Positions 9,253 through 43,542 of a DNA stretch of 64,000 nt are shown in pieces. A program made the position numbers and the translations under genes. Positions within the stretch are counted from its first letter, which is position 1. Each line of letters starts with the position of its first letter. Origin of the DNA: Persicirhabdus sediminis (GTDB lineage Bacteria > Verrucomicrobiota > Verrucomicrobiia > Verrucomicrobiales > Akkermansiaceae); NCBI RefSeq assembly GCF_016595495.1, contig NZ_JAENIM010000034.1, positions 62,001-126,000 of the forward strand, in the 5' to 3' direction. The notes under the pieces are model-generated. The model did not search any database, was not told the DNA's origin, and saw nothing but the letters and a program-made list of their open reading frames with translations.

Positions 9253-10380
9253 TTAGCAACGGCGACGGCGTAGGATGCGTGCCACACCACCGAGGCCGAG
9301 CAACATGATCGCAGCTGGCTCAGGAATTTTGTCCGTCACCGTAATCGTCCACGAGGTACCAGTATTTTCCCAAACCCACTCGAGGCCTTCATCGAGCTCA
9401 GGCAGGGAGATGGAGTCAAACTCACCAACGATGTTGCCAGCGGTGAACAATGTATACGAATCACCAGAGACAAAATCGCCAGTGCCAAGCGTATTAATCA
9501 CTAAGTTACCACCCAATGTAAGAGTTCCATTGATCTCAAAGGTATCACAAAGCGAGCTGCCGAGTTCGACCGTCATAGCCACTGTGCCTAATTCGCCACC
9601 ATAAGAACCTCCAAAATTAACATTTACAGTTCCAGTTCCAGTCGTTGTCCATGACGCTAGTCCTCCAGAGCCATCAGTATTGGCGCCAATATTGAGGTTG
9701 GCAATCGTCAGTGTCCTATTGCCATTAGACGCCAGTGTACCGTGGCCAATGAGATTGCCCACCACCCCGTCTGCATACAGACCTAGACTTTTACCATTCA
9801 TTCGCAGAGTCGCCTCAGAAAGGTCACCACCTTGAATACGAAACTCAGTAGTAGTAGAAGCCATCGTGATATCAGCCTTAATCACGGAGCCACCTAGAGC
9901 GAGAAATCTATTGGTATCTCTCACTTCGAAGGTGCCCGTAAGCGTCAGATTTTCTACCTCAAATACTTTAGGAGTGCCCACATAACCACCGCTGATATAT
10001 GAACCTACATTCAACGTTGTTTTATCAGCTCCTAGACCTTTAAGCTTTAATGCCTGATTTAGCACAGCGCCTTCAGTAGCCCTCCGCGAGATGGTATTTA
10101 CATTAAATGTGCCTTCGCCAACATTGACTTCGTTTCGGCCACCGTCGTGCATGAAGATGGCGTCTGCGCTGCCATCATTGTTCCATGCGACGTACTGGTT
10201 TTTATCCTCATCCCACCAAGATGGGTTATCGAGATCCCAAGTTAAGCCATTTGATGTTCCCGGTGGGGCCACATTAGGGTCCTCAGGATCTGGAGAACCC
10301 AAAATGAGCGCGCCATGGGTGAGGCCCATGCTCGCTAGATAACCTAGCGCCGTCGCAATCTTATATGTCTGTCTTTTCAT
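9253..10380 (-). CDS. PEP-CTERM sorting-domain protein, paralogue 3
   Basis: The 375-aa product has a signal peptide (LGYLASMGLTHG-ALI), a repetitive beta-rich body and a C-terminal PEP-CTERM tail with an Arg-rich end (RRRRC). It is closest to paralogue 2 and also shares the N-terminal block LTWDLD-PxWWD with it. Three such genes in a row on the same strand, with copied promoters and terminators, point to two rounds of tandem duplication. No enzymatic motif is visible. Confidence 0.85.
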   Translation of the reverse strand: MKRQTYKIATALGYLASMGLTHGALILGSPDPEDPNVAPPGTSNGLTWDLDNPSWWDEDKNQYVAWNNDGSADAIFMHDGGRNEVNVGEGTFNVNTISRRATEGAVLNQALKLKGLGADKTTLNVGSYISGGYVGTPKVFEVENLTLTGTFEVRDTNRFLALGGSVIKADITMASTTTEFRIQGGDLSEATLRMNGKSLGLYADGVVGNLIGHGTLASNGNRTLTIANLNIGANTDGSGGLASWTTTGTGTVNVNFGGSYGGELGTVAMTVELGSSLCDTFEINGTLTLGGNLVINTLGTGDFVSGDSYTLFTAGNIVGEFDSISLPELDEGLEWVWENTGTSWTITVTDKIPEPAAIMLLGLGGVARILRRRRC

Positions 10381-19061: not shown

Positions 19062-21995
19062 CTAACGCCTAGACCTGCCAGCCGGACTAGGTCGAGAACC
19101 TGAGCGGCTAGGTGTTGGCCTAGATGGAGCCGATCTACTTGGGCTAGGGCGGAATGATGACGAGCGCTGTGGCGCGGCACGCTGCACTGAACGAGTGCGC
19201 TGCACGCTTCGTTGTGAACTCTGCTGCCTAGCACGACTATCAAAGTTCAACTTGCTAGATGTTGGCCTAGAGTTGTTATAAGTAGGTCGCGCTGCCGGTT
19301 TTGGCGCAGGCCTCGAAGCAGGCTTCGGCGCTGGGCGTGTTGCAGGCTTCGGCGCTGGACGGGTTGCAGGCTTCGGCGCTGGACGGGTTGCAGGCTTCGG
19401 CGCTGGACGGGTTGCAGGCTTCGGCGTCGGACGGGTCGTTGGCTGGCTTGGGCGAGTCGTTGGCTGGCTTGGGCGAGTCGTTGGCTGGCTTGGGCGAGTC
19501 GTTGGCTGGCTTGGACGGGTCGTTGGCTGGCTTGGGCGAGTCGTTGGCTGGCTTGGGCGAGTCGTTGGCTGGCTTGGACGAGTCGTTGGCTGGCTTGGGC
19601 GAGTCGTTGGCTGGCTTGGACGGGTCGTTGGCTGGCTTGGACGGGTCGTTGGCTGGCTTGGGCGAGTCGTTGGCTGGCTTGGGCGAGTCGTTGGCTGGCT
19701 TGGACGAGTCGTTGGCTGGCTTGGACGAGTCGTTGGCTGGCTCGGACGGGTCGTTGGCTGGCTTGGGCGAGTCGTTGGCTGGCTTGGGCGAGTCGTTGGC
19801 TGCCCCGGCTTCACCCCTGGCTGAGTCGGACGGGTTGTTGGTTTTTGCCCCGGCTTAACCCCTGGCTGGCTTGGTCGCGTCGTTGGTTTTTGAGTGGGTC
19901 TCGTAGATGGATTGTTCGGCAGCTTGGTATCTTTCCATTTGCCACTTTCCCTAGTCTGCCAGTTTCCTTTATCTTTTTTATAAACCTTACCGTCTTTACC
20001 AACAAAGACATTGTCTCTGGTGCTCGGGCGGGCAGTAGGTCTGAACCCTTGTGAAGGTTTACTAGGTCGCTTATCAGCGGTAGCTGGTAGACGATTTTTA
20101 TTATTCGCCCAATCTCTGTTGTGAGGTTTCACCCCTTTATTCCAGCCACTCCCATATGGCGTTGGCACTGGGCGTGCACCTGGTCGGCCTGGACGATAGC
20201 CAGGTCTTGGACGTGTTGGGTTATAGGCTGGTCTCCATGATGATCCGTAGCGGTCACCATAGCGATAGTGAGCACGATGGTAGCGGCCTCGATGATATGG
20301 CACAGGACGCACACAGCCACCCCACGGTCCATAACCACGGTAACTTCCGCGATAATAACCACGGCGATACCAGCTATATCTAGCGCCGCAGCCCCAGCCA
20401 ATGTAGGCAGGGCGGTACCAATGATAATGGCTGTGGTTGTTGCCCAGCCAGTAACCAGCTCCAAAGAATAGCAATCCCCGCCACAGATAGCCACCTGTGT
20501 AGCCAGTGGTATACCCCACATCCACGGTGGTTGGGGTGGAATTGTACACGTTGACGTAGGTCACATTGTGTGTCGGGTGCTCAGCTGGAATGGTGTAAAT
20601 TTCCTCTGCCACGTTATCACAAACAACCCATGTCCCATTTGCCGTAGGCGCCTCAAACCACACCCCGTCGTAACAGCAATAATACTTGTTATTGACCAAA
20701 AAGACATCGTTCTCGGTATTGGTGATAAATTGCACCGTAGTGCCTTTGATTGCCTGTAATTGCGGCTCACCATCGTAAGCTACTTCCAGCGTCATATCCG
20801 CACGGTTCACCGTAGCGGTTTGTGGAATCGCAGCGGCCACCGCTGCTTCATCAGCTGCAGACGTTCCCGCTACCGAGGCCAGCACATCAGCTTGCTTACC
20901 ATCTTCAGGGATCTTGGAGAATTCCTCCGGCAGATCAAAAGTAGCCGCACTCCAGCCACGATCCAGCTCCTGCGAGCGGAACCATCGACCAGCGGTCAGA
21001 TAATACCAATTTTTCTCTTCTGGGTAGAAAAAGAGATCATTCTCAGTATTGGTCACCTGCATCAGCTTGGTGCCAGAAATCGGCTCTAAAATAGCCCCGC
21101 CATCGAGTTCCAGCAGCTCACCTGGCTGGTTGGAAACAAAAACCACAGGCCCTTCAGCCACGGGCTCTAAGCTAAGAGCCTCTCTCACAGCTTCCCAGTT
21201 ATCATCCTCAGGCAGTGATTTGAAAGAAGCAGGCAGGCTCTTTGCCGGAGCCCACGGCCCCTTCATCACATCACCCGTCTGCATCCACACGTCGCTAGCC
21301 AGCAGGTAATACTGCGAGCTGGTTCCATCCATCAGCAAATCCCAGTTGGTATTGGTGGCAAAAAGCAGGCTATTGTCGCCCTCTTTCACCGCTTTAAAAC
21401 TTGGGTCGCCCATGAAATTCACCAACACAGCTGGCGTTTCAGAATAAAAAATCGGCGGTGGGTCTAAGCTCACCTCAGCATCTTTCTCGCTCACCTCAGC
21501 TCGGTCCACTGCCGCCACCATCGAGTCCAGGCTCATGGTCAAATCAGTAGATTTATTCACCACCTTGGTCATCAATGCTTCCAGCTGCTTTTTCTGCTCG
21601 TCGCTCTCCGCATCGGGAAAACTCAGCGCCAAGATCTTGCGTTCACCAAAGTGCACCACATTCTCTTCTTTCACCGCCACCGTAGTGGTTTCCAGCATCA
21701 CCGCACCATAGGCAGCCTCCGCATCTTTTTTCTTCAGCGAGCGCACTGACGCCGCCATGCGTGTCTTCAATGTCTTAAAATCCTCCCAAGCATCTATCTG
21801 CGGGCTAAAAAAGATCACTTCATAATCGTCAACTTGATAGCTGACGGGCCAGCTGACATCACCGATGTCATTGGCTTCTTGCTCACTATTGGTAGCTGGT
21901 TCTTGCGCCAGTGTACTCGTCGCTGCCACCATACCAATAGTAACTGCCAGCGGCCAAGCGGCCAGCCAGCTGAGTTTCAGTTTAGGTAATTTCAT
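19062..21995 (-). CDS. Large secreted protein with three Trp-rich modules, Gly/Tyr/Arg region and Pro/Thr/Arg heptad repeats
   Basis: Start chosen at ATG 21995, which opens a signal peptide (KLKLSWLAAWPLAVTIGMV... ending STLAQ); the longer frame to 22061 would bury it. The 977-aa product has three similar modules (about residues 190-290, 290-390, 400-490), each with a pattern like ATNTNWDLL / TNTENDLFFY / TNTENDVFLV followed by YYLL/WYYLTAGRWF and a PEEFxxIPED end. These recall proteins annotated as carbohydrate-binding family V/XII. Then comes a Gly/Tyr/Arg/Trp-rich stretch, about 18 copies of QPTTRPS, five or six PKPATRPA units and a Ser/Arg-rich tail. Function is unknown; a structural or envelope role is likely. 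Confidence 0.8.
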   Translation of the reverse strand: MKLPKLKLSWLAAWPLAVTIGMVAATSTLAQEPATNSEQEANDIGDVSWPVSYQVDDYEVIFFSPQIDAWEDFKTLKTRMAASVRSLKKKDAEAAYGAVMLETTTVAVKEENVVHFGERKILALSFPDAESDEQKKQLEALMTKVVNKSTDLTMSLDSMVAAVDRAEVSEKDAEVSLDPPPIFYSETPAVLVNFMGDPSFKAVKEGDNSLLFATNTNWDLLMDGTSSQYYLLASDVWMQTGDVMKGPWAPAKSLPASFKSLPEDDNWEAVREALSLEPVAEGPVVFVSNQPGELLELDGGAILEPISGTKLMQVTNTENDLFFYPEEKNWYYLTAGRWFRSQELDRGWSAATFDLPEEFSKIPEDGKQADVLASVAGTSAADEAAVAAAIPQTATVNRADMTLEVAYDGEPQLQAIKGTTVQFITNTENDVFLVNNKYYCCYDGVWFEAPTANGTWVVCDNVAEEIYTIPAEHPTHNVTYVNVYNSTPTTVDVGYTTGYTGGYLWRGLLFFGAGYWLGNNHSHYHWYRPAYIGWGCGARYSWYRRGYYRGSYRGYGPWGGCVRPVPYHRGRYHRAHYRYGDRYGSSWRPAYNPTRPRPGYRPGRPGARPVPTPYGSGWNKGVKPHNRDWANNKNRLPATADKRPSKPSQGFRPTARPSTRDNVFVGKDGKVYKKDKGNWQTRESGKWKDTKLPNNPSTRPTQKPTTRPSQPGVKPGQKPTTRPTQPGVKPGQPTTRPSQPTTRPSQPTTRPSQPTTRPSQPTTRPSQPTTRPSQPTTRPSQPTTRPSQPTTRPSQPTTRPSQPTTRPSQPTTRPSQPTTRPSQPTTRPSQPTTRPSQPTTRPSQPTTRPSQPTTRPTPKPATRPAPKPATRPAPKPATRPAPKPATRPAPKPASRPAPKPAARPTYNNSRPTSSKLNFDSRARQQSSQRSVQRTRSVQRAAPQRSSSFRPSPSRSAPSRPTPSRSGSRPSPAGRSRR
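19304..19800. repeat. In-gene tandem repeats (24 bp then 21 bp units)
   Basis: Units of 24 bp (19304-19430, about five copies encoding PKPATRPA) are followed by units of 21 bp (19431-19800, about 17-18 copies encoding QPTTRPS). The 21-bp units differ mainly at one or two wobble bases (GGGCGA, GGACGG or GGACGA variants). The pattern predicts slippage and length polymorphism. All units keep the reading frame because both lengths are multiples of three. Confidence 0.95.
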
Positions 21996-22298
21996 ATCTC
22001 TTGGATAGGTCGTTGATCCATTAGTTGCCCCTTCGACGTCGCCGACGCAGAAAACATTCAAATCTAATGGTGAAATAAACGCTCAGAATCAGTCGATTAC
22101 AAGTGATTTCTAATGAAATCAAAGGATTCCCCCAGCCCTCAATACAATCACTATTGTTCATTCTCATATGAAAAAATCACAAATATCCAAACAATCATCA
22201 TTGAGCCACCCCAACAAAAATGACCTACTAAAGTCTCTTATTCTATGCGTGATACACGATCTAAGAAACCAACAAACTGTTAATTTCCACACAAGAAC
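21996..22298. other. AT-rich divergent promoter region
   Basis: 303 bp between the repeat-protein gene (minus) and the broken PEP-CTERM gene (plus). AT-rich, presumably holding both promoters. I see no further gene and no convincing operator. Confidence 0.4.
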
Positions 22299-25065: not shown

Positions 25066-27882
25066 CTACTGGCCTCCGCGGCCAACGCGTAACAAATCTA
25101 GCGGCTTAGCGAGACCGACGCTGATAGCTGGCACCAATGATGCAAATATCACTAAGACCAAGGTCATCACCACGCCGATGAGGATGCTAGAGATCGATAA
25201 TTCTAGCTCTGTTGACATCCCGCCGAAGAAACTAACATGCTTTGATAGAGCCGTACCACACCAGCCAAATAAAATTCCAAACAGCGAGCTAACAAAGCAG
25301 CCAACCAAGCCAATTAATACAGCCTCAACAACCACCAAGCGCGCGAGTGTCCAGCGGGAAAACCCTATCGCTCGCAATACTCCCAGCTGCCAACGGCGCG
25401 ACCTAACTGAAGCCACAATAACGGTCATTACCCCCAGACAGCCAATCAACAAAGCAACTAAAGGCAAGACGCTCGCAGCCCACAGCCACTTCGTCGCGCT
25501 CGTGCGAATATTTTCCCTCACGTCCTCTATCTCCGTCCAATAAAGATAGCTGTGCTCGTCCGCTGAATCTTTATTCTGCAGCGACCGGTGCTCGGCTCGA
25601 TCGGCCCAATTATAGACCGTCACCTCTTCAGCTAGACTCGACTGATAGTCAGCCCTCAGCTTATCCAGCCACGTCTCATCAGCTGCCGAATTGCGCACCA
25701 TGGCAAATCTAGGTTTGAATAGGTCAAAGTCACCAGCAACGACCTGAGCATCAGCAATCACTAATGCCGCCGTTCGGTGTGTGCGAACTCGCAGCCCAAC
25801 AGATTTAGTTAGCCAATGCCAGCCAGCCATGTCGACAGTAGCTGAAATCTTGTAGCGCACTATCTTTGCAGGATCCTCAGGGGCCACTACTTCAAATTCA
25901 TCTCCTAACACCAATCCCGTATCACTGAGAAAATGCTCAGGCACAATACAACCTCGTTGGTAGCGAATTTCGTTTTTAATCCTCTCTGCCTCCGCATCCG
26001 AAAAATCAAAATCGAATGGGCTGAATGAACGACCCGCCCTAGCAAAATCGGCACCCACAATGATGACATTGTCTTGTCTGGTAATGCTGGCCCGTTCTTG
26101 GCTGCCGGTGATGTCTACTCGCAATCGCGGCTGCTCAACAAATACCGGGCTCACTGTAGCCCCCATTTTCTCATAACTATCAGCTTCGTCTAGCAATGCC
26201 TGTGACCTAACGCCATAGGGCTCGAAACGAACCACCTCAGTTGGGCACCATTGCCCAGGCACAAACTTCTCAAGCATCGTCATGCCCCACACTTGAATCG
26301 ATATAAAAATCCCCAGGCCGACACTTACTAATATTGCTGAACCCACAGTACGTCCCATGTTTGCCGACATCTGCTGCTTTAGCAATGACGGCTCAATAGA
26401 TAAGACTCTAGCCAGTACTGGAGAAACCAATTTTTCTACCAACTGGACAGTAGCTGGAATTAATAAAATAACCCCCAAAACTAACAACACGACAACCGCT
26501 AGTAAGATCAAAAACGCGTGCAACTCTGCATCAGGAGCGCTTGAGAAGGCCAAGCCACATGCGCTCGCGCTGCACACTATTCCTAGAAACGCCAACAAGC
26601 AGACCTTCCAAAGTGACCAAACTGACAAACGCTGCTCGGGAAGAACCAAAGCATCTAATGGACTCGTCGCATAACTCCGCCACGCTGGCACCAGTGCAGC
26701 AAGCAGAGCTGCACCTAATGTCGTTACCCCAGCAGCCAGCACCGCTGTTGGGCTCAATACAAGCAACTCTGATAAAACATCGCCAGACGACATGTTAGTC
26801 CATATCTGCAGCATATAGTAGATAAACAGGCTAATAATAAATCCCAGCGCAGCAAAAACCAGCGATTCAACCATCACGATGCCGGCAATCTGACCGCGAG
26901 TCATGCAGATAGATCGCAGCATGCCAAATATTCTAACTCGCTCAGAAACGCCCATATTCAAGGCGTGGAAGATGACTAAAAAGGCCAATAACATTGCAAG
27001 CGCTGTGCTCCCTATCGACTGCATTTTCAAATTCTTCGCGGATGATTGCTCATCCAGCTGCTCCTCCAGATCAAAGTCTTGCTGAAATTGAACCGGCGGA
27101 TCCAGTTGGCCTAAACTTGGCCCCCAACGGTAACGAAATTTATGAATATCAGTCTCCGCTGCTAGTTTGATACCAAGAAAACTTACCATTTTGGCTCGTT
27201 TGAAGATGGTCTCCGCAGCGGGAAAACTAACAAACGCATCCGCTACGCTAGGACTTGGTAATTTTTTGCTCGCTCCCATTTTTCCTGTCAGCGGCTTTGG
27301 TGGATCCGTAACTATCCCTATCACCTTAAGCGACAGCTCATGATCACGACTCCCCAACAACAACTCTCCACCAACATAGAGGTGATAGAGATCAGAAATC
27401 GACTGGCTAATAACAACCTCCAACAAGTCACCTCTACTTTGTGACGCCAGCCATTTCCCGCTGGCCATATCAAAAGGCGCCGCATCAGCTTCCGTAGCCA
27501 CAATCAACACCTCATCAGCTACACCAGTGCTCTCAGAAGTTGATCCCGGTGGCGGTTTCACCTCCTCTTGTAGGGGATTTAGAATAGCAAGCGATCCAGA
27601 CCACATCGCGTCAGCAGACTCAACACCATCCAAAGCTCTAACGAACTCCACAGCTTCGCTGCTCAGATGTCTATCGAAACGCTGACTGATAGGATCAACT
27701 ATAAGGTCGTATTCGCCCATAGCACGCTGCGCAAATTCCTTATGAGACCGCAAAACCGCATCGTAGCTAGACAACATCCACAGCACCAAACAGCTAGCTG
27801 AGCCAATAGCTAACGCTGCCCACACCAGCCGCACCTTACTTGCCAGCGCCAGCCGCAAAGCGAATTTTACTATCATTCTCAT
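25066..27882 (-). CDS. FtsX/MacB-type ABC permease, second of the operon
   Basis: The 938-aa permease has an N-terminal helix, a large periplasmic domain (about residues 45-300), a first block of membrane helices (about 300-540), a second periplasmic domain (about 540-800) and a C-terminal FtsX block (about 810-935) with the family-like sequence RSRRWQLGVLRAIGFSRWTLARL. This is the ten-helix layout of YbbP/LolC-related permeases, which move lipoproteins or other substrates mechanically rather than by importing small solutes. The start ATG overlaps the stop of the ATPase gene (TGATG), so the two are translationally coupled. No MacA-type adaptor is present. Confidence 0.85.
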   Translation of the reverse strand: MRMIVKFALRLALASKVRLVWAALAIGSASCLVLWMLSSYDAVLRSHKEFAQRAMGEYDLIVDPISQRFDRHLSSEAVEFVRALDGVESADAMWSGSLAILNPLQEEVKPPPGSTSESTGVADEVLIVATEADAAPFDMASGKWLASQSRGDLLEVVISQSISDLYHLYVGGELLLGSRDHELSLKVIGIVTDPPKPLTGKMGASKKLPSPSVADAFVSFPAAETIFKRAKMVSFLGIKLAAETDIHKFRYRWGPSLGQLDPPVQFQQDFDLEEQLDEQSSAKNLKMQSIGSTALAMLLAFLVIFHALNMGVSERVRIFGMLRSICMTRGQIAGIVMVESLVFAALGFIISLFIYYMLQIWTNMSSGDVLSELLVLSPTAVLAAGVTTLGAALLAALVPAWRSYATSPLDALVLPEQRLSVWSLWKVCLLAFLGIVCSASACGLAFSSAPDAELHAFLILLAVVVLLVLGVILLIPATVQLVEKLVSPVLARVLSIEPSLLKQQMSANMGRTVGSAILVSVGLGIFISIQVWGMTMLEKFVPGQWCPTEVVRFEPYGVRSQALLDEADSYEKMGATVSPVFVEQPRLRVDITGSQERASITRQDNVIIVGADFARAGRSFSPFDFDFSDAEAERIKNEIRYQRGCIVPEHFLSDTGLVLGDEFEVVAPEDPAKIVRYKISATVDMAGWHWLTKSVGLRVRTHRTAALVIADAQVVAGDFDLFKPRFAMVRNSAADETWLDKLRADYQSSLAEEVTVYNWADRAEHRSLQNKDSADEHSYLYWTEIEDVRENIRTSATKWLWAASVLPLVALLIGCLGVMTVIVASVRSRRWQLGVLRAIGFSRWTLARLVVVEAVLIGLVGCFVSSLFGILFGWCGTALSKHVSFFGGMSTELELSISSILIGVVMTLVLVIFASLVPAISVGLAKPLDLLRVGRGGQ

Positions 27883-28652
27883 CAGCGAGTTTTTGTCAGT
27901 TGCTTCTGCTGGTGAACGATCTGCTGATATTTAACAGCCAGCTCAGCTTCGTTGTCACATTCAGATGTTGCAAAGCTATCTACAATCTTGCCGTCACTCA
28001 GCACATGAACTCGGTCAGCCGCAAAGGCTACTGCGGGCTCATGAGTGACCATCGCTATCGTGCATTGTTGTTCATCGCATAGCTGCCTTAGCAATTGGCA
28101 AATATCCTCTTCCGCTACCGAATCTAAATTACCAGTAGGCTCATCAACTAACAAAACATCAGGTTCAGTGATCAAAGCCCTAGCAATCGCTACTCGTTGC
28201 TGTTCCCCACCTGAAAGAGCATCAGGCCGATGATGGCGCCTATCCTTCAAACCCAGCCTATCTAGCAGCTTCTCCAATTGGCTATCTGTCACTTTCTTTC
28301 CAAGCAGTGGAAGCTTGATATTCTCCTCAGCTGTCAAAAACGGCATTAAATTATAGGCTTGGAAAACAAAACCTAGATGATTTCTGCGAAACAAAGTTAG
28401 ATCATGATCACCGTAGCCGCTGATATCAGTTCCGTTAATGATAATTTCTCCACGATCGGCATTTGTTAAGCCCCCAATGAGATGCAGCAAAGTACTTTTG
28501 CCCGACCCAGACGCCCCCATGATGGCGACAAAATCTCCTTTGTCTACGGCAAGACTAACACCATCTAAAGCGGCGATTTTCTGCTCGCCGTGCGAGTAGT
28601 ACTTTTCTAATGAGCGAATCTCTAATGTTCGATTATCACTTTTCATGATCAC
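27882..28652 (-). CDS. LolD/MacB-type ABC ATPase, second of the operon
   Basis: 256-aa ATPase with Walker A GASGSGKST (about residue 47), Q-loop VFQAYNLMPFLTAEEN, signature LSGGEQQRVAIARA, Walker B LLVDEPTGNLDS and H-loop MVTHEP. These are the marks of the MJ0796/LolD/MacB group that pairs with FtsX-type permeases. It is coupled to the permease downstream (1-bp overlap) and follows the first permease by 14 bp. It energises the transporter from the cytoplasm. Confidence 0.92.
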   Translation of the reverse strand: MIMKSDNRTLEIRSLEKYYSHGEQKIAALDGVSLAVDKGDFVAIMGASGSGKSTLLHLIGGLTNADRGEIIINGTDISGYGDHDLTLFRRNHLGFVFQAYNLMPFLTAEENIKLPLLGKKVTDSQLEKLLDRLGLKDRRHHRPDALSGGEQQRVAIARALITEPDVLLVDEPTGNLDSVAEEDICQLLRQLCDEQQCTIAMVTHEPAVAFAADRVHVLSDGKIVDSFATSECDNEAELAVKYQQIVHQQKQLTKTR

Positions 28653-28666
28653 AATTCTCCTAAAAT

Positions 28667-31492
28667 CTAATGATGTTGTTTCCCTGCTGTAAGTAGCTGA
28701 AGCGTAGACCTTCGCGCCATTCCTATCGCTGGAATGATCACCGCTAGTAATGATACCACCACGGCGAGGACAATACCTAACAACAGTTTAGCCCATGGAA
28801 CTACCAACTCCACAGTGATCCCGCTAAAGATATAAGCATAATGTGCCATCTTTGCACTCGTATAGCCGATATACAAACCAGCTAACAAACCTATCAAACC
28901 ACCGCTCAATCCAATGATTAATGCTTCAGCTAACACCAACCTTACCTGCTGACTCACCGGCATCCCCAATGATCGCAGTACTCCAAAGGACCATCTGCGG
29001 TTCCACACCGAGCTCATGAGCACACTAAAAAGTGCCAGTAAAACTACCTGCAAGAACCAGAGCGGAATGCGGCTCATCTTTGCTATCATCCGGCTTGCGT
29101 GGCTATTGGTTTCATCTATCACCTGCCCCAGATCTCCAACCCTGAACCACGGTCTCTCAATGTGATACTTTTTGCCCCCGCGCGGCAATCGATAATTAAA
29201 TGACGGGTAATTTATTAACTTAGCATCGATTTCTCGATTCAAGCTCATCACCCTATCAGCATAAGCTACTTCAGAAAAATCATCCGTATATTGGCCCCAC
29301 GCCACATTATAACTAGAATCGAAAGCTAATGGTTTAAATGATTCCGGCCCAACAAAAACCATCGCCATACATCGATTTCCAGCACCGTGCACGTCTCTCA
29401 TGCCACCCTTTTTAGTTAATAAATGCCACGGCGTTGTATAGATCCCTACCACCGTGAACTCCCTATCCATCGCATTTTTCGCTTTTCCGCCATCAGCTGG
29501 CGCGCCCAGCTGCAGTTGATCTCCAAGCTCCAGACCTGACTGCGCAGCGAATGACGCTGGGATCACGCAGGCGTCGCCTGCTAATAATTTCTGCGAAATA
29601 GTTTCAGCCTCACCAGTTGATAGACCGAGGTCAAACAATGGTCTTTCCCCAAGAAAAGTCCTCGCTCCGTCAACTGACAGCACTAGTACGTTAGACGCTT
29701 TAGATTTCACCATTGCGTTATTTTCAATGGTTCCAGCTAGATCGCTGCCTAGAGTAAACTGACGCATCTGCATCGGCTCGAACTTAGCAAAGTTGTCTAT
29801 CTTCGCTAGCTCATCCATTGTCTCGGCCGAGACTCCAGTTGGCGAAAAACGTAATACCAAATCAGGACATTGAGCATTAGGTAAAAATGGTTTCAGCATG
29901 CTAGCCCCCCAGGTACTAACTGCTGTGTAGGCGCCGATACAGATAGCCACCATCATCGTTAGACTGAGTACGCGCTTGAAACAGCCCTGAAATTCGCCCA
30001 GCAATAGCTCAGCGGGGAAACGTAACACTCTAGCAAATGCAGGAATCAGAATAACGGCAAACAGACGCAACAGCGTAGGAGCTAGGCACAGTGCCCCAAT
30101 CACAAAGCCAGGCAAAGCAATAGTTGTGTAGAGTATCGCTCTGATTGAGAATGTACAGTTAGGTAATAAAGGAACGACTAAAGCCAGAGAAGTACAGGCT
30201 AAAGCAATGCCCCCCTTTCTCTTGGAGAGTCTCCCCAATGGCTGTCGTGCCATGGCTGGTAATTTCAACTCTGCTAGATCTGATTTTAACAAACGAAATA
30301 TCGCCACACACGCTGCTATAGCGGATCCACCTAGACTACACACGAACGCCCAACACACCGCTGGATAGTCTATGCGCAAGCCATCAGGATAAACTAAGGG
30401 ATCGGCCCAAACTGTCAGCTGCAATAACAAGGCGCCGACAACCAAACCTAACACCCCGCCTAGCAAACCAACGATGAGGCATTCACTAATGACCAAGACC
30501 CTAATAAACCTCCGCCTAGCTCCTAGTATCATCAGTGTGAAATACTGTCCTATCCTTTTGCTTATGCCAACGCTGAGACTAACATAAATAATAATCCCTG
30601 AAACCATACAAGCCAGCGCAACCACCAAGGGCCTGAGGTCGCGCCCTCGACTCCCCGCAGCCGCCTGCTTGTCCAGCAGCGCCTGTAGGCTCGATTCATT
30701 TAGTTCGGCATAACTCTCAGTATGCAAATGACCTAACTCGGCCCTATCAACTCCACGCACAGCGAGTAAGTTTGGAGTTAGTTCGCTTTCCTCGCCCATC
30801 AAGCTTCTGGCCGTTTCTTTGACGACGTAGACGTTTCCTTTTTGACCAAACTGACGGGAAATCTCAACGATGCCCACAACGGCTATCAGCTCTCTACCAG
30901 CTGGGCCAACTAACTCAATTTCATCGCCAATCTCAACAGCCATACGGTCTGCTTGCTGCCTATCAATGACCACACCAGCAGACTGTCCCTCTTGAGAACT
31001 CAGCCAGTGCTCCTCATCTAACTGTGGCGGCGGGTTAAAATGCTCAGGATCAACGGCAAACATCACCGCTCTCAGGCTGGGACCAGTCCACGGCAGATAA
31101 TGCTGCAGCATCACTTCGTTAGCAAAGGCCATGTCCACCCCATCAATGCCTGACGCCCAGTCTAACTGGCCTTCAGACTGAGATCTTCTTGTTCCCTTCC
31201 TCGCTCGCTCTCGGCCTCCCTTAGCTTTGGCTTTAGCCTTGGCCTTAGCTGTATTGACAGGCCCACCTCTACTTTGGTAGGGGTTTTCCGCTGCTAAATA
31301 GTAATCATAAGAACCTAATAACTCAGCTGCATAGGCTGTGTTTTGCTCTTCTTTGGTATCCAAGATACCGTGCATCCACACCACCGCAGTGACTGCGATG
31401 GCTACGCCTAATACGGCGACAAGGTAGTATAGCTTATTGCTTTTTAATTCAGCCAAAGCTAACATCCACACCACTAAAAATGACTCTTTCAC
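28667..31492 (-). CDS. FtsX/MacB-type ABC permease, first of the operon
   Basis: The 941-aa permease has the same two-periplasmic-domain, ten-helix plan as the second permease and is its distant paralogue (shared NAQCPDLVLRF / GQWCPTEVVRF region and WNRRWSFGVLRSLGMPVS near the C-terminal FtsX block). Unusual is a Lys/Ala then Arg-rich stretch at about residues 81-110 (AKAKAKAKAKGGRERARKG), in the first periplasmic domain, absent from the paralogue. Its ATG overlaps the upstream ATPase stop by four bases (ATGA). Substrate unknown. Confidence 0.85.
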   Translation of the reverse strand: MKESFLVVWMLALAELKSNKLYYLVAVLGVAIAVTAVVWMHGILDTKEEQNTAYAAELLGSYDYYLAAENPYQSRGGPVNTAKAKAKAKAKGGRERARKGTRRSQSEGQLDWASGIDGVDMAFANEVMLQHYLPWTGPSLRAVMFAVDPEHFNPPPQLDEEHWLSSQEGQSAGVVIDRQQADRMAVEIGDEIELVGPAGRELIAVVGIVEISRQFGQKGNVYVVKETARSLMGEESELTPNLLAVRGVDRAELGHLHTESYAELNESSLQALLDKQAAAGSRGRDLRPLVVALACMVSGIIIYVSLSVGISKRIGQYFTLMILGARRRFIRVLVISECLIVGLLGGVLGLVVGALLLQLTVWADPLVYPDGLRIDYPAVCWAFVCSLGGSAIAACVAIFRLLKSDLAELKLPAMARQPLGRLSKRKGGIALACTSLALVVPLLPNCTFSIRAILYTTIALPGFVIGALCLAPTLLRLFAVILIPAFARVLRFPAELLLGEFQGCFKRVLSLTMMVAICIGAYTAVSTWGASMLKPFLPNAQCPDLVLRFSPTGVSAETMDELAKIDNFAKFEPMQMRQFTLGSDLAGTIENNAMVKSKASNVLVLSVDGARTFLGERPLFDLGLSTGEAETISQKLLAGDACVIPASFAAQSGLELGDQLQLGAPADGGKAKNAMDREFTVVGIYTTPWHLLTKKGGMRDVHGAGNRCMAMVFVGPESFKPLAFDSSYNVAWGQYTDDFSEVAYADRVMSLNREIDAKLINYPSFNYRLPRGGKKYHIERPWFRVGDLGQVIDETNSHASRMIAKMSRIPLWFLQVVLLALFSVLMSSVWNRRWSFGVLRSLGMPVSQQVRLVLAEALIIGLSGGLIGLLAGLYIGYTSAKMAHYAYIFSGITVELVVPWAKLLLGIVLAVVVSLLAVIIPAIGMARRSTLQLLTAGKQHH

Positions 31493-32238
31493 GACGATAA
31501 CAAACAGCTTTGATAAAAATCATTGAGGCCATCTAAATCATGCCCTTTCGGCTGGTAAACATTGTCGTTTAACTTGCCATCTATCAGCACACGAACAGAG
31601 TCGCACCAGCTCGCAGCTATCGGCTCATGAGTCACCATCACCACCGCGCATTCTACGCTAGCACACAAATCTGCTAGAACACTACACAGGCCATCTGCCG
31701 CCGCTCGGTCAAGATTACCACTCGGTTCATCAGCCAAGATAATACTTGGTTCAGTAATCAAGGCCCTAGCAATAGCAGCTCTCTGCTGCTCACCTCCACT
31801 CAGCTGATCAGGAAAATGCCCAGCTCTATCAGCTAGGCCAAGGCGCTCCAACAGTGAATCAAGCCAATCTGATGGGCATTTTTCTCCACGTAATCTCAAG
31901 GGCAGCTGGACATTTTGAGCCAGCGTCAGCATCGGTAATAAATTATACGATTGGAATATATAACCTAGCTGGTGTTGGCGGATTTTTGACAAGAGCTTCT
32001 CGTCACTCGTGCAAACATTCTTACCAGAAATAGCTACCGAACCTTTATCAGGACTGTCTATTCCTGCTGCAATGTTCAATAGCGTACTTTTACCTGAACC
32101 ACTCGGTCCCATGATCGCTACAAACTCGCCTCGCTTTACTGTTAGCGAAACCTCATGTAATACCTCAACTCGCTTAATCCCCTGTCGATAAGATTTACAA
32201 ACGTCTCTCATCTCCAGACATATCTCTTTCTCACTCAT
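31489..32238 (-). CDS. LolD/MacB-type ABC ATPase, first of the operon
   Basis: 249-aa ATPase: Walker A GPSGSGKST (about residue 43), Q-loop IFQSYNLLPMLTLAQN, signature LSGGEQQRAAIARA, Walker B ILADEPSGNLDR, H-loop MVTHEP. It begins two bases after the TonB-receptor stop and overlaps the permease start, so the five-gene unit is tightly coupled. It is a paralogue of the second ATPase. Confidence 0.92.
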   Translation of the reverse strand: MSEKEICLEMRDVCKSYRQGIKRVEVLHEVSLTVKRGEFVAIMGPSGSGKSTLLNIAAGIDSPDKGSVAISGKNVCTSDEKLLSKIRQHQLGYIFQSYNLLPMLTLAQNVQLPLRLRGEKCPSDWLDSLLERLGLADRAGHFPDQLSGGEQQRAAIARALITEPSIILADEPSGNLDRAAADGLCSVLADLCASVECAVVMVTHEPIAASWCDSVRVLIDGKLNDNVYQPKGHDLDGLNDFYQSCLLSS

Positions 32239-32240
32239 CC

Positions 32241-34358
32241 TTAAAAACTAGTTCTGATAGCTATTTCGAAATTTCTAGGGTCTCCAGGGAAGGCCTGATA
32301 GTAATGCCTATTGGACTCGATATAGCGTTCATTAAATATATTGTTTAACCTGAAAGTAAGCTCTGCCTTATCTGAGCCACCAAACTTACTCAGCGCCATA
32401 CTCATGGAAGCATCAAAAACATGTGACGCCTTCACGAAGTGATCCTCGCTGATGTACTCAGCTCTGTGCGTAGTGCTGTACTGATCTCGATAGCGATAAC
32501 TTACACCTAACAGCACATCTTGCAAATAACCCGCTGGGATGCGGTAGGACAATCGTCCGGTAAACGAGTGCGGTGGGTGTCTATCAAAGTGACTCCCCGT
32601 ACTGAGGTTTCTGTAGTCGTTATAGGCGTAGGCGGCGTACACTGATAGATCGTCACTTATCTCGCCTGTGACAGACAATTCTAACCCCTGTGAACGAACC
32701 TCGCCCTCAGTCTCGTAATAATTAGAATCAGGGATCGCCAAAGCAAATCCGCGCTGGTCAATTTGATAAACGGAACCGCTAAACCATAGTGATTCTATTG
32801 GAGAATATCTCATGCCTGCTTCGTACTGCACCGCCCTCCAAGAATCGGTTAGTTCTTCATCAACACCTGACATATAACCAAAATTTGGTGATTCAGTGAG
32901 TGATATATTGCCAAACAAAATAACTCTATCACTAGCTAGGTAGCTCAAGCCACCACGTGGGCTGAAAGAATTGGCTGTGTTGCCCAAATGACTTTTGTGA
33001 TAATCGTAGCGTATCCCAGCTAGCGCCCGCCACTTGTTCCAGCTCATGTAATCTTGGACTAAGAAACCTAACCTATCTGTTCGCGTATATTGGTAATCAT
33101 CTTCGCGCCAGCTCCAGCCTGGATCATACTCGGGCACAGAAGTGAAAAAGCTATAGCCCTTCCTCACCTTGCGGTTGAAATCAGCCTGCATTAAAACCTG
33201 ATGATCTACATTCCCACTGGAAAGCATCGCATTAGCCCGAGCGTAAATATTATTCTGCTGATAGACAGAATCTCCAGCCTGATGCTCTAATGGTTTCTGG
33301 TCATACGAGCCACCCGCATAGGCAGACGAACCCAGGTGTTCAAAGTCTAAGCTAGCGCGTGAGATGCCAGCTCCTAGCTTATACTGCCATCTATCATTAG
33401 CATCATATTCGACGTAAGCTTGCAGCGTTAGACCGTGATAACGATCCCGCATGTCCTCTGTGGATAGATTTGAATCCCAATCGAATCCAGGCAGTGGCTT
33501 CCCCTGATAGATGGGGATTCCTTGATAGCCCGGCTGGTCGAGATATTGATAACTCATCGACATGCCTAGACGCAAATCATCACGCACGGCGTAGGTGATC
33601 GAAGGGGCAAAAAAATACGATTCTCTAGCTGGATAATCACTCGCCCAGAATGATTGCCCTATATCAAAGTTGAATGGCAGACGAATGGCCAATCGATCAT
33701 CTAGCAGCGAGCGGTTGATATCACCACCTAGCTGGTATCTTTGCATGTCACTGCCAAAGTTTGTTTGCAAATGGTAATCGCTAAAGTTCTCATGCAAACG
33801 CGCTGACTTCATTACCAAGTTCACTGACCCGCCTGCGCCATAAGCTCCTAAGGTCGACCCCGCCCCACCTTGAGTAGAGCCAACTGGCCCCTTAGCGAGT
33901 TCAACACGTTCCAGCGCACTGGTATCCATAAATGTCCCCATAGGTCCAGCTAGACCTAACGATCCATCTATCGTTGCCTCGCTGCCAGACATGCCGCGAA
34001 TTGTATACTGACCTGATGTCCTATCCAGAAAGGTCTTCCCGCCCGTGTAAATCCCTGGAACTGTTCTCAGCAGATCGTGCAAATCGTGTGGGTTTGCCTC
34101 TTTGATGTAATCATCAGTTAGCACATCAATGGTCACAGGTAGTTCTTCAGGTGGTACATCTAGCAATAGTGCTGTGGAAACTGATTCGACGTGATATTTA
34201 GATAAAGGCACCGCCTCAATAACCGTCTCCTCCAGCTCACCCATGGGTTCGGCCTGCGCCAATATAAGCATCGCCCCCAGCATGCCTATCGTACACCTGC
34301 GCACGCTTATGGCTGCCAGTTTCCGCCCCCCTAAATTTATCTCTCCAACACACTTCAT
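32241..34358 (-). CDS. TonB-dependent outer-membrane receptor
   Basis: The 705-aa receptor resembles TonB-dependent siderophore-type receptors. After an N-terminal signal (start ATG 34358; Met 26 is an alternative) it has a TonB-box-like ETVIEAV, a plug domain (about 65-185; VDLL-like DLLRTVPGIYTGG, YTIRGMSGSEATIDG, VELAKGPVGSTQG) and a beta-barrel ending in Phe (NFEIAIRTSF). It takes up ligands such as iron chelates or cobalamin across the outer membrane using TonB energy. It is the first gene of an operon with two ATPase-permease pairs, an unusual partner for a TonB receptor. No Fur or riboswitch signal was clear upstream. Confidence 0.9.
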   Translation of the reverse strand: MKCVGEINLGGRKLAAISVRRCTIGMLGAMLILAQAEPMGELEETVIEAVPLSKYHVESVSTALLLDVPPEELPVTIDVLTDDYIKEANPHDLHDLLRTVPGIYTGGKTFLDRTSGQYTIRGMSGSEATIDGSLGLAGPMGTFMDTSALERVELAKGPVGSTQGGAGSTLGAYGAGGSVNLVMKSARLHENFSDYHLQTNFGSDMQRYQLGGDINRSLLDDRLAIRLPFNFDIGQSFWASDYPARESYFFAPSITYAVRDDLRLGMSMSYQYLDQPGYQGIPIYQGKPLPGFDWDSNLSTEDMRDRYHGLTLQAYVEYDANDRWQYKLGAGISRASLDFEHLGSSAYAGGSYDQKPLEHQAGDSVYQQNNIYARANAMLSSGNVDHQVLMQADFNRKVRKGYSFFTSVPEYDPGWSWREDDYQYTRTDRLGFLVQDYMSWNKWRALAGIRYDYHKSHLGNTANSFSPRGGLSYLASDRVILFGNISLTESPNFGYMSGVDEELTDSWRAVQYEAGMRYSPIESLWFSGSVYQIDQRGFALAIPDSNYYETEGEVRSQGLELSVTGEISDDLSVYAAYAYNDYRNLSTGSHFDRHPPHSFTGRLSYRIPAGYLQDVLLGVSYRYRDQYSTTHRAEYISEDHFVKASHVFDASMSMALSKFGGSDKAELTFRLNNIFNERYIESNRHYYQAFPGDPRNFEIAIRTSF

Positions 34359-34612: not shown

Positions 34613-34660
34613 AATGGGTGGCAGACAATAGGAAACCAGTCCTGTTATCTACCACCCATT
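34613..34660 (-). terminator. metH: Hairpin terminator after metH
   Basis: On the minus strand AATGGGTGGTAGATAACAGGA can fold on TCCTATTGTCTGCCACCCATT (three mismatched or wobble pairs), then ATTTTAT. It lies 38 bp past the metH stop. The T tract is short, so terminator strength is uncertain. Confidence 0.6.
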
Positions 34661-39243: not shown

Positions 39244-39423
39244 CTGAAAGCCAATCAGAACGCAGCTCGGACACCTGAGCTGAAGGTGCTCTGGAACAAA
39301 ACCAGGACACTTGAACTGAAAGTCAATCAGAGCAAAACCCAGACACCTGCACGGCTGCCCTATAAGCACCCAGCTCGCAAAATTGGGCTGAAAGCCCGTC
39401 AGAACAAAGCTCGGGGCTTCAGC
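39244..39423. repeat. Degenerate tandem repeat with an exact 36-bp period
   Basis: Units begin at 39244, 39280, 39316, 39352 and 39388, exactly 36 bp apart. Typical unit features are CTGAAAG, then ATCAGAAC, then CAGCTCGG, then ACACCTGAG. Units match at perhaps 55-75% of positions; the fourth is the most decayed. The last ends in GGGGCTTCAGCCCC, an inverted repeat. No CRISPR-like unique spacers exist. Confidence 0.75.
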
Positions 39424-39534
39424 CCCGAGAAATACCCCCGTCTAACGCACCCTGAAAGGGTGCTAAAATAGCAGCTAGCCAGTTGGGACTATCTGCAAAA
39501 ACACCTAGCTGGCGACCGATTTGATCAAGAACTG

Positions 39535-40779
39535 CTATAAGTTTCCATCATCACCTAACTCATAACCAAGCTCAGCTAGAGCTTGACGAAGTTTTTGTTT
39601 ATCCAGCTGGATGCCAGTAATCGTCAACTTATTGTTAGCTGGATCTCCTACTACCGAGCTGGCTAGTTTCTCCTCCACTAGCTTAGCGCGGATTTTACTC
39701 ACACACCCTTGGCAGCCCATGCCATCAACATCGAGCTCGATGGATTCATCTCCTTTAGCTAGTAGGCCAGCCAGCCAAGTTTTTGCGTCGCGTAGCGCAA
39801 ATAATAACAAAAACCCAACAAAGGCCACAGCTCCAGCTAGAACCAGCCAGCTAGATGATTCTCCGTGGTGGTGGCCAATATGCTCGGGCATTTTCACCTG
39901 AATCACCGAGGCAAATAAGACCGCACAAATCACACTGCCAACGCTAACCGACAAGAGGTAGACCACTGTGAATAGGCGTCCAAAACTTTTATAAATCAGA
40001 CCGATAGTCGCAATGTTAGTCGCGGGACCAGCGATAAGAAAAACAATCGCCACCGCTGGTGACATGCCCTTGGCGACCAATGCCGCCGCTATCGGAACCG
40101 AGCTCGTTGCGCAAACATACAGCGGAATAGAGAGAAAAAGAGCCGCGATAGATCCCATCAATGGATCAGCAAACAGGCTATTGCCAAGAAATTCCTCGCT
40201 GACAAAGGTAGCGATCAGAGCTGCAGCAATCAGGCCCACAAACATCCACCGCCAGAGGTTATAAAACAGATCATTGATGGCAAAATCGTAGAGCTCTTTC
40301 AGACTAACACTGGATCGCTCCACTGGCTGAGCGGATTCAATTTCCCCCGCAGCTGCAGGTTTTGACTTCGCCAGCACATGGTGCAAACAGCCAGCAAAAA
40401 TGCCGATCACAAAGGCGCTAGCTAATTTAAAAAAGGCAAATGGCCAGGAGAGAAATGACGCACTAACCATCAGCGAATCTACACCAGTCTGCGGCGTACT
40501 AACAAGAAATGATAGGCAGCTGCTTTTACTCGCCCCCTTTTTTTTAAGAGCCAACACAGTAGGCACCACACCGCAGGAACAAAGCGGCATCGGCACACCA
40601 ATAAATGCCGCCTTCACCACATTGGCAAACGAGCTCTTGCCCAGCCAGCGCTGAAACAATCCAGCTGGCACAAACAAATGCATCAGCCCAGCAATCAAGA
40701 GCCCCAACAGGAACCACACCCCCAGCGCCTCACAGATCGCCCATAGATTTTGCAAAAATACCATCATCGCGTCGGCCAA
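39535..40779 (-). CDS. SO_0444-family Cu/Zn efflux permease with C-terminal heavy-metal-associated domain
   Basis: The 414-aa protein has a permease core of about eight to ten helices with the conserved metal motif MPLCSCGVVP (about residue 60) and SFLVSTPQTGVDS, typical of the SO_0444/UPF0718 permeases linked to copper, zinc or arsenic export. A C-terminal HMA-like domain (about 345-412) carries GMGCQGC, a CxxC metal site. It acts in the inner membrane. It stands alone; no metal-responsive regulator is adjacent. Confidence 0.85.
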   Translation of the reverse strand: MADAMMVFLQNLWAICEALGVWFLLGLLIAGLMHLFVPAGLFQRWLGKSSFANVVKAAFIGVPMPLCSCGVVPTVLALKKKGASKSSCLSFLVSTPQTGVDSLMVSASFLSWPFAFFKLASAFVIGIFAGCLHHVLAKSKPAAAGEIESAQPVERSSVSLKELYDFAINDLFYNLWRWMFVGLIAAALIATFVSEEFLGNSLFADPLMGSIAALFLSIPLYVCATSSVPIAAALVAKGMSPAVAIVFLIAGPATNIATIGLIYKSFGRLFTVVYLLSVSVGSVICAVLFASVIQVKMPEHIGHHHGESSSWLVLAGAVAFVGFLLLFALRDAKTWLAGLLAKGDESIELDVDGMGCQGCVSKIRAKLVEEKLASSVVGDPANNKLTITGIQLDKQKLRQALAELGYELGDDGNL

Positions 40780-41929: not shown

Positions 41930-42622
41930 TCAGGAAATGATGCAATCATTCTGAGCGCAAAACTCGATAAACTTCGCTGAATGAAGGTCGTTTGAGGCAT
42001 AGAGGTACACAAAATCAGAACTGTTTAAATACATCTGGGTCTCTAGATCATCAGCGAGAGGCTCTTCCACGAGCCCTGACTCCAAGAGTGAAACCATCCG
42101 CTTATAGTTGATAAACTCACAGTGGCCATGCTTCGATTTTACAATCTTAGAGATAGGAACCCCAGATGTCAGTAGCTCAGAGTAGGCTTGCCCACCCATG
42201 ACGTAGTCGCTCAAGTCTATCGCAACATCTATCTGTTCATAGGCCTGCTGATTCGCTTCTATGAAGGCTTTATTTGCAGGGCTGTTGATGTCTCTTCCTA
42301 TATCCCATCGATGAGATCCTAAATATGTGCCTCGATGTGAGCCCGTGAACTTTACATTTGAATACAGACACGCATCAAATCGATTGATAGATTTGAACCA
42401 GCAATTCTCAAATTCAACATTATGAAAAGAAACCCCACACCAATCAACTTGTTTAAATTGACAGTTCGTGAATTTGACGTCTGAGATCACGATTCTTTTA
42501 CGCGGATCACGTATATCAGTTCCCATATAGCTACCGCTGAAGATACATCTTTGATAATGAGCTGAACTCCAAGAAGGTAGATTTTCATCCTGACTATAAT
42601 CGCATTTTGAATAAGTTTCCAT
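41930..42622 (-). CDS. Probable immunity protein with pentapeptide-like repeats
   Basis: 230-aa cytoplasmic protein. Residues about 20-80 show a pattern with Phe or Trp/Val every five residues (IVISDVKFTNCQFKQVDWCG), like pentapeptide repeats. The C-terminal half has no recognised domain. It starts 11 bp after the stop of a Hint-linked toxin tail, the usual place for the cognate immunity gene. It contains no CAGCTG word, unlike core genes around it, which fits acquisition. The immunity role is inferred from position only. Confidence 0.55.
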   Translation of the reverse strand: METYSKCDYSQDENLPSWSSAHYQRCIFSGSYMGTDIRDPRKRIVISDVKFTNCQFKQVDWCGVSFHNVEFENCWFKSINRFDACLYSNVKFTGSHRGTYLGSHRWDIGRDINSPANKAFIEANQQAYEQIDVAIDLSDYVMGGQAYSELLTSGVPISKIVKSKHGHCEFINYKRMVSLLESGLVEEPLADDLETQMYLNSSDFVYLYASNDLHSAKFIEFCAQNDCIIS

Positions 42623-42633: not shown

Positions 42634-43542
42634 TTAATAGGCTGGAACCAAAACATCATCTCCATATTTCTGGAATTTGATGCCTGAATGGTATTGTTTT
42701 ACAGTGGTGACATCAAATTCCAACCCTTTAAACTGCCCGTGACCAATGAAATCTACGCTTGGCGCGCCGCCTCCATCTCCCACATGAGAGTATAGACGCC
42801 TCAAGGAAGATTTGTCTTTCACTAACTTAGCCACCCTTAGCTCAACAGCTTTGCCGTAAAACGCCTTATACAGGCCCGGTTTGTCACGAAGAGCCTTCAT
42901 TCTGGGTCCACCAAGTACATCCCTCATTAAACCGGGAGAAGTAGCCAGATCGCTGACAGATTTATTCGTCAGTTTCTGCATGATCGCTAAACCCCTTATC
43001 CTTGTAATATCATTTTTGTTCACGATGCCTCTCGCTTCGAGGCGGTTTAGATACTTCTTACCATGCTTCAGGTAACCTTCCATAGCCCGGTGTGTGCCTT
43101 CAGCACAGAGGTTATGCACCCAGACGGCTTGCTCGGTGGAGCTTTCACCTTGTGGGGTGACGAAGTAGGTATGCCAGTCGGCGACCTCGAAGTTGTAGGT
43201 AGAGAAGTGCTCGCCAGCAGCGGATGTTTCCAGCTCGGTGCTCTCGATGACGGCGGTGCTGCCATCGGCCAGCTCGAGCCTTTCGCCCACTTCCAGCTCG
43301 CCCATGGTGATCCAGGCGAGGCGGTCGAGCGACCAAAACGGGTGCTCTGGGGTGCCGACTAGGGTCTGGCTAGATTCAGGTTGGCGACTCCCCTCGGGGT
43401 CATCGTCATCGCTGGCTGCCAGAGTGCGGCTGCTCTGCGATGAATGGGTCTTGTAACCCTTACTACGGTAGGTGAGGTGAACCAGCTGGGTCGGCTTGCT
43501 GCGGAACAGCTGAACGACGGGCTTGAAGCCTACCCCCCACGA
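42634..43542 (-). pseudogene. 3' remnant of a polymorphic toxin: Hint (intein-like) part plus C-terminal toxin domain
   Basis: The open frame runs from 43542, just after an in-frame TGA, to 42634, but has no early start; the first ATG is at 43305. Read in full, it gives FKPVVQLFRSKPTQLVHLTY, then LVGTPEHPFWSLDRLAWITM, YNFEVADWHTYFV and WVHN, the Hint-domain core with the His-Asn cleavage end. The N-terminal Cys half is lost. The tip (about 150 aa) ends SVDFIGHGQFKGLEFDVTTVK, compatible with a PD-(D/E)xK nuclease-type toxin. The gene for the large delivery part is absent, so this is a displaced tail next to its immunity gene. Confidence 0.75.

Follow-up and report, generated by a model that had tools for sequence, protein, structure and literature searches.

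The known TonB pathways hand their ligand on to a binding-protein-dependent importer, to another permease or to a reductase, and we know of no outer-membrane receptor wired to mechanotransmission ATP-binding cassette (ABC) pumps in the manner described here. Among FtsX-type systems, MacB has four helices and a fused ATPase, the ADOPs are orphan permeases, and FetB and FetC belong to the same type, the terms FtsX and MacB being absent from the text of the paper on the FetMP-FetABCDEF system. The FetBCD ABC transporter of Campylobacter jejuni is needed for iron uptake and is required under iron limitation, without being itself the iron permease, which is another protein (PMC10783030, available part). 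Escherichia coli YbbP has 10 helices, one periplasmic domain lying between helices 1 and 2 and another between 7 and 8, and YbbAP, with TesA, extracts hydrophobic compounds from the inner membrane, according to the available part of PMC12646458. Here we report on a five-gene operon in a 64,000-nucleotide stretch of the Persicirhabdus sediminis genome (Verrucomicrobiota, Akkermansiaceae; NCBI RefSeq assembly GCF_016595495.1, contig NZ_JAENIM010000034.1, positions 62,001 to 126,000), hereafter the window, which encodes a siderophore-type TonB-dependent receptor and two ABC ATPase-permease pairs with predicted YbbAP-like architecture, and whose receptor-pump linkage recurs in many genomes of the phylum. 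Such a linkage was undescribed in the literature searched (open-licence PMC papers), and none appeared in the Porphyromonas papers in the portions of text examined.

The operon consists of five abutting genes on the minus strand (window positions 25066-34358) in the order receptor, ATPase A, permease A, ATPase B and permease B, with intergenic spacings of a 2-bp gap, a 4-bp overlap, a 14-bp gap and a 1-bp overlap along its length. The coordinates and near-abutting spacing of this operon, put forward in an earlier interpretation made from the letters of the DNA without database searches (the sequence-only reading), were confirmed for all five open reading frames (ORFs). The receptor P0005 (705 aa, 32241..34358) is of the siderophore-receptor type and carries the Plug domain PF07715; ATPase A (P0004, 249 aa, 31489..32238) matched ABC_tran with an E-value of 2.4e-34 and has intact motifs; permease A (P0003, 941 aa, 28667..31492) showed two FtsX stretches plus MacB_PCD by Pfam, with a YbbP-like predicted fold. 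ATPase B (P0002, 27882..28652; ABC_tran, E 4.1e-37) counts 256 aa from a GTG start, two codons inside which lies an in-frame ATG, and permease B (P0001, 938 aa, 25066..27882), with two FtsX stretches by Pfam and a structure model, bears the signature GWHW.TK.

Both ATPases keep the Walker A, LSGGEQQR, Walker B and H-loop motifs and are 49% identical to each other. PF02687 (FtsX) was found in both permeases with E-values of about 1e-25, and PF12704 (MacB_PCD) in permease A only. The best NCBIfam matches of the ATPases were MacB, LolD, DarD and YbbA, with YbbA (201.1 bits) ranking first for ATPase A, and the scores of the two ATPases did not reach the cut-offs of the YbbA equivalog NF007879 (201.1 and 194.1 bits; cut-off 336), of MacB NF007826 (217.2 and 192.8 bits; cut-off 966) or of LolD TIGR02211 (215.3 and 196.8 bits; cut-off 307.75). 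The same was observed for permease A with LolC/E TIGR02212 (31.3 bits; cut-off 362.45) and for the permeases with ADOP TIGR03434, which is the best NCBIfam match of permease B (79.3 bits for permease B and 26.3 bits for the other; cut-off 622.3). Judged by these sequence profiles, the proteins fit none of the curated families tried, namely YbbA, LolD, LolC/E, MacB and ADOP.

In order to assign the permeases by fold, we used structure models. The permease B model, built from 42 aligned sequences (mean predicted local distance difference test score, pLDDT, 85.0; predicted template modelling score, pTM, 0.85), shows ten long helices of membrane type, the first and the seventh each followed by a large periplasmic domain, and the hydropathy of both permeases agrees with 10 transmembrane helices and two periplasmic domains per chain. 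Its top Foldseek matches were the E. coli YbbAP structures 9ge7 (E 1.8e-20) and 9ge6 (E 4.6e-20), followed by BceAB (E 1.2e-12); in the VIA comparison YbbAP gave Z-scores of 23.6 (root-mean-square deviation 10.9 over 631 residues) and 21.8 (6.1 over 726 residues), with BceAB (21.8) and a half-length MacB (21.7) as close runners-up. MacB, LolCDE and HrtBA were among the other fold matches. The permease A model (pLDDT 77.6) retrieved the same top two structures, 9ge6 and 9ge7, and a profile comparison with E. coli YbbP by hhalign gave a probability of 37.9 and an E-value of 0.00034 over a partial alignment. Because the models of both permeases can be aligned with E. coli YbbP along the whole chain, the pumps are, as modelled, YbbAP-like Type VII ABC machines, and the description of the two pairs as 'MacB/LolCD-like' in the sequence-only reading has to be replaced. 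Not noticed in that reading were the two FtsX halves of each permease, the roughly ten membrane helices modelled per chain, and the identity of only 25% that permeases A and B share along their length. A LolCE-like heterodimer of permeases A and B was also considered, and this candidate is weakened because each chain already contains both FtsX halves. Positions invariant in permease B among 21 diverse members include W35, P136, G171, W532, P547, G660-D661, W688-H689, R698 and W738; in the 42-row alignment W532, P547 and G660 are still invariant and W35, G171, W688 and R698 are conserved in at least 90% of rows, whereas P136, D661, H689 and W738 drop off the conserved list.

The resemblance to E. 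coli YbbAP-TesA thus comprises the 10 transmembrane helices, the periplasmic domains at helices 1-2 and 7-8, the separate ATPase and a structural match over the whole length, but the identity in the structural alignment is about 14%, YbbP has 804 aa compared with 938-941 aa here, and none of the five operon genes, to which this search was confined, encodes a TesA-type hydrolase, a TonB receptor being linked instead. MacAB-TolC and PvdRT-OpmQ share the FtsX-type permease and the matching periplasmic fold; they have, however, an adaptor and an outer-membrane channel, and the ATPase and permease of MacB are fused, whereas the operon has a separate ATPase, a 10-helix chain and no adaptor among its five genes. 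The siderophore-type TonB receptor at the outer membrane recalls BtuB/FhuA-BtuCDF, from which the operon differs by the lack of a binding protein or FecCD. The duplicated FtsX permease is shared with ADOP, but the permeases here have their own ATPase and score far below the family cut-off. FetMP-FetABCDEF offers the parallel of an ABC transporter that growth under iron limitation requires while another protein serves as iron permease; unlike the operon, it has two homologous permeases with one ATPase, and it is tied to FetM/FetP and thioredoxins and to no TonB receptor in the part of the paper available (PMC10783030).

The receptor P0005 aligned over its full length to the TonB-siderophor model TIGR01783 (positions 2-649 of 649), its best PDB sequence matches were 6i96, labelled CntO (E 1.8e-23), and 6z8a, labelled FoxA (E 3.7e-23), and its N-terminal EETVIEA was recognised by eye as a possible TonB box. 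TonB-siderophore was also the best NCBIfam model in all eight linked receptors scanned from other genomes, three of which exceeded the TIGR01783 cut-off (L033, 316.6 bits; L036, 314.2; L146 from Planctomycetales bacterium 10988, 238.4); these three belong to a receptor lineage distinct from the P0005 type. Their sequence scores place the pump-linked receptors in or beside the TonB-siderophore subfamily.

To investigate the linkage of receptor and pump across Verrucomicrobiota, we surveyed 387 genomes, scoring the two best candidates per genome at most, so that further copies could escape. Relatives of permease A were found in 58 of the 387 genomes, the window genome counted, and the loci of 56 of the 57 others were examined, leaving out G263 with its 4-kb contig. 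In 27 of these 56 genomes a same-strand TonB-dependent receptor was found at a distance of up to three genes from the permease, most commonly as receptor, ATPase and permease, hence with one ATPase-permease pair; at L037 and L040 the receptor comes after the permease. ORF calling followed simple greedy rules, so that some ORFs are overextended at their start (negative gaps beyond -4) and the ATPase of L156 (genome G044) was uncalled; apart from three overlaps due to over-long calls, the receptor and ATPase are separated by 0-117 bp, 15 bp being the commonest gap.

The search in the opposite direction gave a similar picture. P0005-type receptors form a discrete subfamily present in 40 of the 387 genomes, with scores of at least 328 bits except in G107, where the match is in two pieces (233 and 194 bits). 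In 29 of the 40 the receptor adjoins the permease or its ATPase, including G148 and G312, where the locus lies at a contig end and only the start of the ATPase is present. The gene-neighbourhood search that the sequence-only reading had proposed therefore supports the association: the grouping occurs in many genomes of the phylum, and the ABC genes of relatives are commonly beside the receptor. The permease was found in 32 of the 40 receptor genomes compared with 26 of the 347 others (Fisher p 1.4e-23, kinship ignored), and it is also present in two receptor genomes beyond the 32, G026 and G044. Both genes occur in at least one genome of 11 of the 13 receptor-bearing genera, and in one genus (g2) 13 genomes have both and at least 10 have neither, among the genomes listed in both searches. 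No relatives were found in viral contigs.

We then asked what inner-membrane partners other than the pump are encoded. The genomes of the family f29 are drafts, with a tabulated completeness of 87-94%. In this family the receptor is next to the pump in 10 of 11 cases, and one plug domain was counted in eight of nine genomes and two in the ninth, G291. FecCD permeases were absent from all seven genomes tested in this family, Peripla_BP_2 binding proteins from all six and PepSY_TM from all eleven, and FeoB (11/11), ExbD (7/7) and TolC-type channels (11/11) were present throughout. For the receptor of some genomes, no inner-membrane partner other than the pump was found. Over all genomes tested, FeoB was found in 23 of 23 and TolC-type OEP domains in 21 of 21.

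The double pump of the window is not the usual arrangement. The two ATPase-permease pairs of the sequence-only reading are real in the window, but a second permease of the same family was found in none of the 56 other loci of the phylum survey, where one pair is the rule. A scan of a second, named genome collection yielded 66 loci, 59 of them with a permease ORF (L148-L154 have none), assigned by their titles mostly to Planctomycetota, Verrucomicrobiota, Lentisphaerae and Kiritimatiellae, with one labelled Bacteroidales; L091, L092, L093, L096, L102 and L103 were left out of clusters and trees as repeat genomes. Two permeases were found in eight loci, in tandem as in the window in L090, L094 (Blastopirellula marina), L099 and L131, and partly divergent in L089, L095, L119 (the last two from Rhodopirellula) and L146. 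Each of these nine loci, the window included, has exactly one permease in an 18-row clade of the tree, which we call the B clade and to which permease B belongs, and the other outside it; a smaller mixture-model tree, without L095, agrees on this pairing. Permease A groups, among others, with receptor-linked permeases in a clade of 25 rows, with a long branch (1.86 and 2.43) that leaves its placement unsure. The double pump would accordingly be a pairing of unlike permeases and, from these trees, does not look like a local duplication; a simple duplication of one pair within the lineage is not favoured, since permeases A and B lie in different, well-supported clades, A being long-branched. Because unlike permeases from different clades are repeatedly paired, A and B are presumably not redundant and probably serve two species or two steps. 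A receptor together with two pumps occurs in two phyla: in the window; in L131 (Verrucomicrobia), where the receptor, with an ExbB-like gene directly after it, lies upstream of two ATPase-permease pairs (L131:2389-5616), a receptor tagged 'noABC' by the three-gene rule though the pumps come a few genes on; and in L146 (Planctomycetales), where a siderophore receptor stands between the pumps.

Ahead of planctomycete and Lentisphaerae pumps (L089-L147) there is often a pseudopilin-like gene of the DUF1559 (SBP_bac_10) family together with an alpha-alpha toroid gene of the prenyltransferase type. Of 108 loci, 36 had DUF1559 genes near the pump (30 of them upstream and in the same orientation) and 23 had toroid genes (12 of them upstream). 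Part of this proximity may be due to chance, since both families are abundant in such genomes, but these neighbours suggest that the same pump also occurs in another type of operon.

Taken together, these results are best accounted for, with a probability that we put at about 0.45, by a TonB-dependent uptake of siderophore type that uses a YbbAP-like Type VII machine as its inner-membrane arm and dispenses with a BtuCD-type importer. TonB-ExbB-ExbD would drive the receptor, and a ferric siderophore or a similar chelate, as the receptor family suggests, would enter the periplasm. The two ATPase-permease machines would use ATP to move their periplasmic domains and would act, on the periplasmic side of the inner membrane, on the ligand; there they may lift an amphiphilic or emptied chelator from the membrane and help to part the metal from it; Fe(II) would then enter via FeoB. 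Ligand, direction of transport and metal release are the parts of this scheme that we infer. The sequence-only reading had likewise supposed a non-classical envelope system, perhaps handling a metal chelate or a lipid-linked ligand, which is supported in outline by the linkage, the siderophore-type receptors and the YbbP fold.

Several observations weigh against this uptake scheme. P0005 scored 174.5 bits with TIGR01783, below the curated cut-off of 223.5, and five of the eight linked receptors scanned (L037, L038, L064, L069 and L131) are also below it. In 11 of the 40 receptor genomes the receptor does not adjoin the permease, and six of these have no permease match at an E-value of 1e-20. 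In one nine-row subclade the receptors are unlinked to the pump. The genes around unlinked receptors are of various kinds (M24 peptidase, BPD_transp_1, FAD oxidoreductase, argininosuccinate synthase, pilus-type ATPase) and give no hint of a ligand. No Fur-like box stood out, the best, 10/15, being equal to the commonest maximum of the shuffles. The absence of adaptor, binding protein and importer noted in the sequence-only reading holds for the operon, and none of them, BtuCD-type importers included, was found among the 23 window proteins scanned with Pfam, a part of the window ORFs; but the genome, which has seven plug domains, encodes a strong FecCD (303 bits) with a nearby binding protein on contig C47, two PepSY_TM matches and TolC-type channels elsewhere (adaptors were not searched genome-wide). 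Finally, the plug domain is absent from 11 of 29 other permease-bearing genomes tested and most planctomycete loci have no linked TonB-dependent receptor; because of this, the core job of the pump is independent of the receptor, which is one of several possible envelope partners.

The last observation bears on whether receptor and pumps share a substrate at all. They could be co-transcribed envelope genes, with the pumps servicing, for instance, lipids or lipoproteins, in line with the permease genomes devoid of plug domains and with the unlinked receptor subclade. We hold this to be unlikely, as the association is retained across deep divergence and involves two lineages of receptors, and as presence and absence of the two genes agree in the 23 g2 genomes listed in both searches, although a single loss of the cassette could explain that agreement. 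Another possibility, to which we give the same low credence, is that the Type VII machines are true importers that move the whole chelate from periplasm to cytoplasm in place of BtuCD. The tight three-gene cassettes and the f29 genomes, which have receptor and pump and none of the three other partner kinds in those tested, are consistent with import; we know, however, of no characterised Type VII transporter that imports, HrtBA, one of the structural matches, is a heme exporter, and FeoB offers an iron route that requires no import of a whole chelate. The extraction activity described for YbbAP in the available part of PMC12646458 also points away from import.

Two further explanations reverse the direction of transport. 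PvdRT-OpmQ, in which PvdRT is linked to siderophore handling, is the model for an unlinked tripartite efflux or chelator recycling system, in which an adaptor and a TolC channel encoded elsewhere would return the emptied siderophore to the outside. TolC-type OEP domains in every genome tested and the match of MacB structures to residues 1-415 of the permease B model would fit, whereas the chain has the YbbP 10-helix layout, unlike MacB, and no adaptor was recognised among the neighbour families present in at least four loci (inspected by eye, few by Pfam, with no genome-wide adaptor search), so that we rate efflux as slightly less probable than the two preceding explanations. The least probable, in our judgement, is export through the receptor, the pumps lifting a lipid, lipopeptide or protein and the receptor acting as outer-membrane exit or delivery site. 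Type VII machines do work outward, the receptor that we assign below to Akkermansia would be very abundant, planctomycete and Lentisphaerae pumps lie near DUF1559 pseudopilin-like and toroid proteins, and the TonB-dependent receptor Oar is required for PopC secretion (PMC6434023, available part). The receptor families point instead to siderophores, and none of the genes in the receptor cassettes was recognised as a candidate for an exported product.

The cassette is also carried by genome G113, which appears to be Akkermansia muciniphila. Its cassette receptor lies at about 394,920-397,178 and has a mass of 83.4 kDa from the first start codon; the genome has two plug domains, the second at 2.04 Mb, and two TonB-dependent receptors were predicted for A. 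muciniphila in the available part of PMC3422733. From size and gene order, the G113 cassette receptor would be Amuc_0336, an 82-kD TonB-dependent receptor among the three most abundant outer-membrane proteins, which together account for 20-40% of the protein of the outer membrane on either mucin or glucose (PMC4960237, available part). Amuc_0336 alone was mentioned in the literature searched, with no mention found of Amuc_0334 or Amuc_0335. Two FecCD genes and a binding protein are encoded at G113:C1:2340735-2344310, and strong FecCD matches were observed in two of the 13 g2 genomes tested, G113 and G096.

As regards the flanks of the operon, a terminator-like hairpin followed by a U-run (about 34613..34660, minus strand, by RNA fold) lies between the upstream metH and the operon, with a folding energy of -31.1 kcal/mol, a z-score of -5.12 and none of 200 shuffles as good; it was not listed by the simple terminator scan. 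Since this strong hairpin and its U-run lie 3' of metH, the operon probably begins anew, separately from metH transcription. A link to B12 through metH was considered and rejected: the hairpin parts metH from the operon and no riboswitch reached the gathering threshold in the window, so that cobalamin is backed by proximity alone. A 2-hydroxyacid dehydrogenase gene (PF02826/PF00389; 24038..25003, minus strand) starts 62 bp downstream of the operon and does not belong to the neighbour families listed as recurring at related loci.

Elsewhere in the window, positions 39535-40779 encode an ArsP-type permease with a C-terminal HMA metal-binding domain, just past the 3' end of which, on the same strand, there is an Acido-Lenti-1 RNA match (39384-39429). 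Three tandem PEP-CTERM proteins of 373, 371 and 375 aa, similar by eye and the first of them Pfam-scanned, are encoded at 5964-10380, and an ORF of 999 aa at 19062-22061 contains a long repeat of the TTRPSQP type and has no match in Pfam. A Pretoxin-HINT domain fragment (42634-43305) followed by a pentapeptide-repeat protein (41930-42622) resembles the tail end of a polymorphic-toxin gene accompanied by a candidate immunity gene.

More tentatively than the uptake scheme itself, much of Verrucomicrobiota including Akkermansia may possess a dedicated YbbP-like Type VII arm at the inner membrane for TonB-dependent uptake, in place of a BtuCD importer with its binding protein, and double-pump operons may pair a conserved B-type machine with a lineage-specific one for two steps of ligand handling. 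The finding offers a candidate role for a major outer-membrane protein of A. muciniphila, presumably Amuc_0336, and for the two ABC genes beside it. It describes a widely conserved TonB pathway in which the neighbouring genes would encode machines of the membrane-extraction type and no importer, other permease or reductase, and it raises the testable question of how bacteria with this cassette carry the ligands of the receptor past the periplasm.

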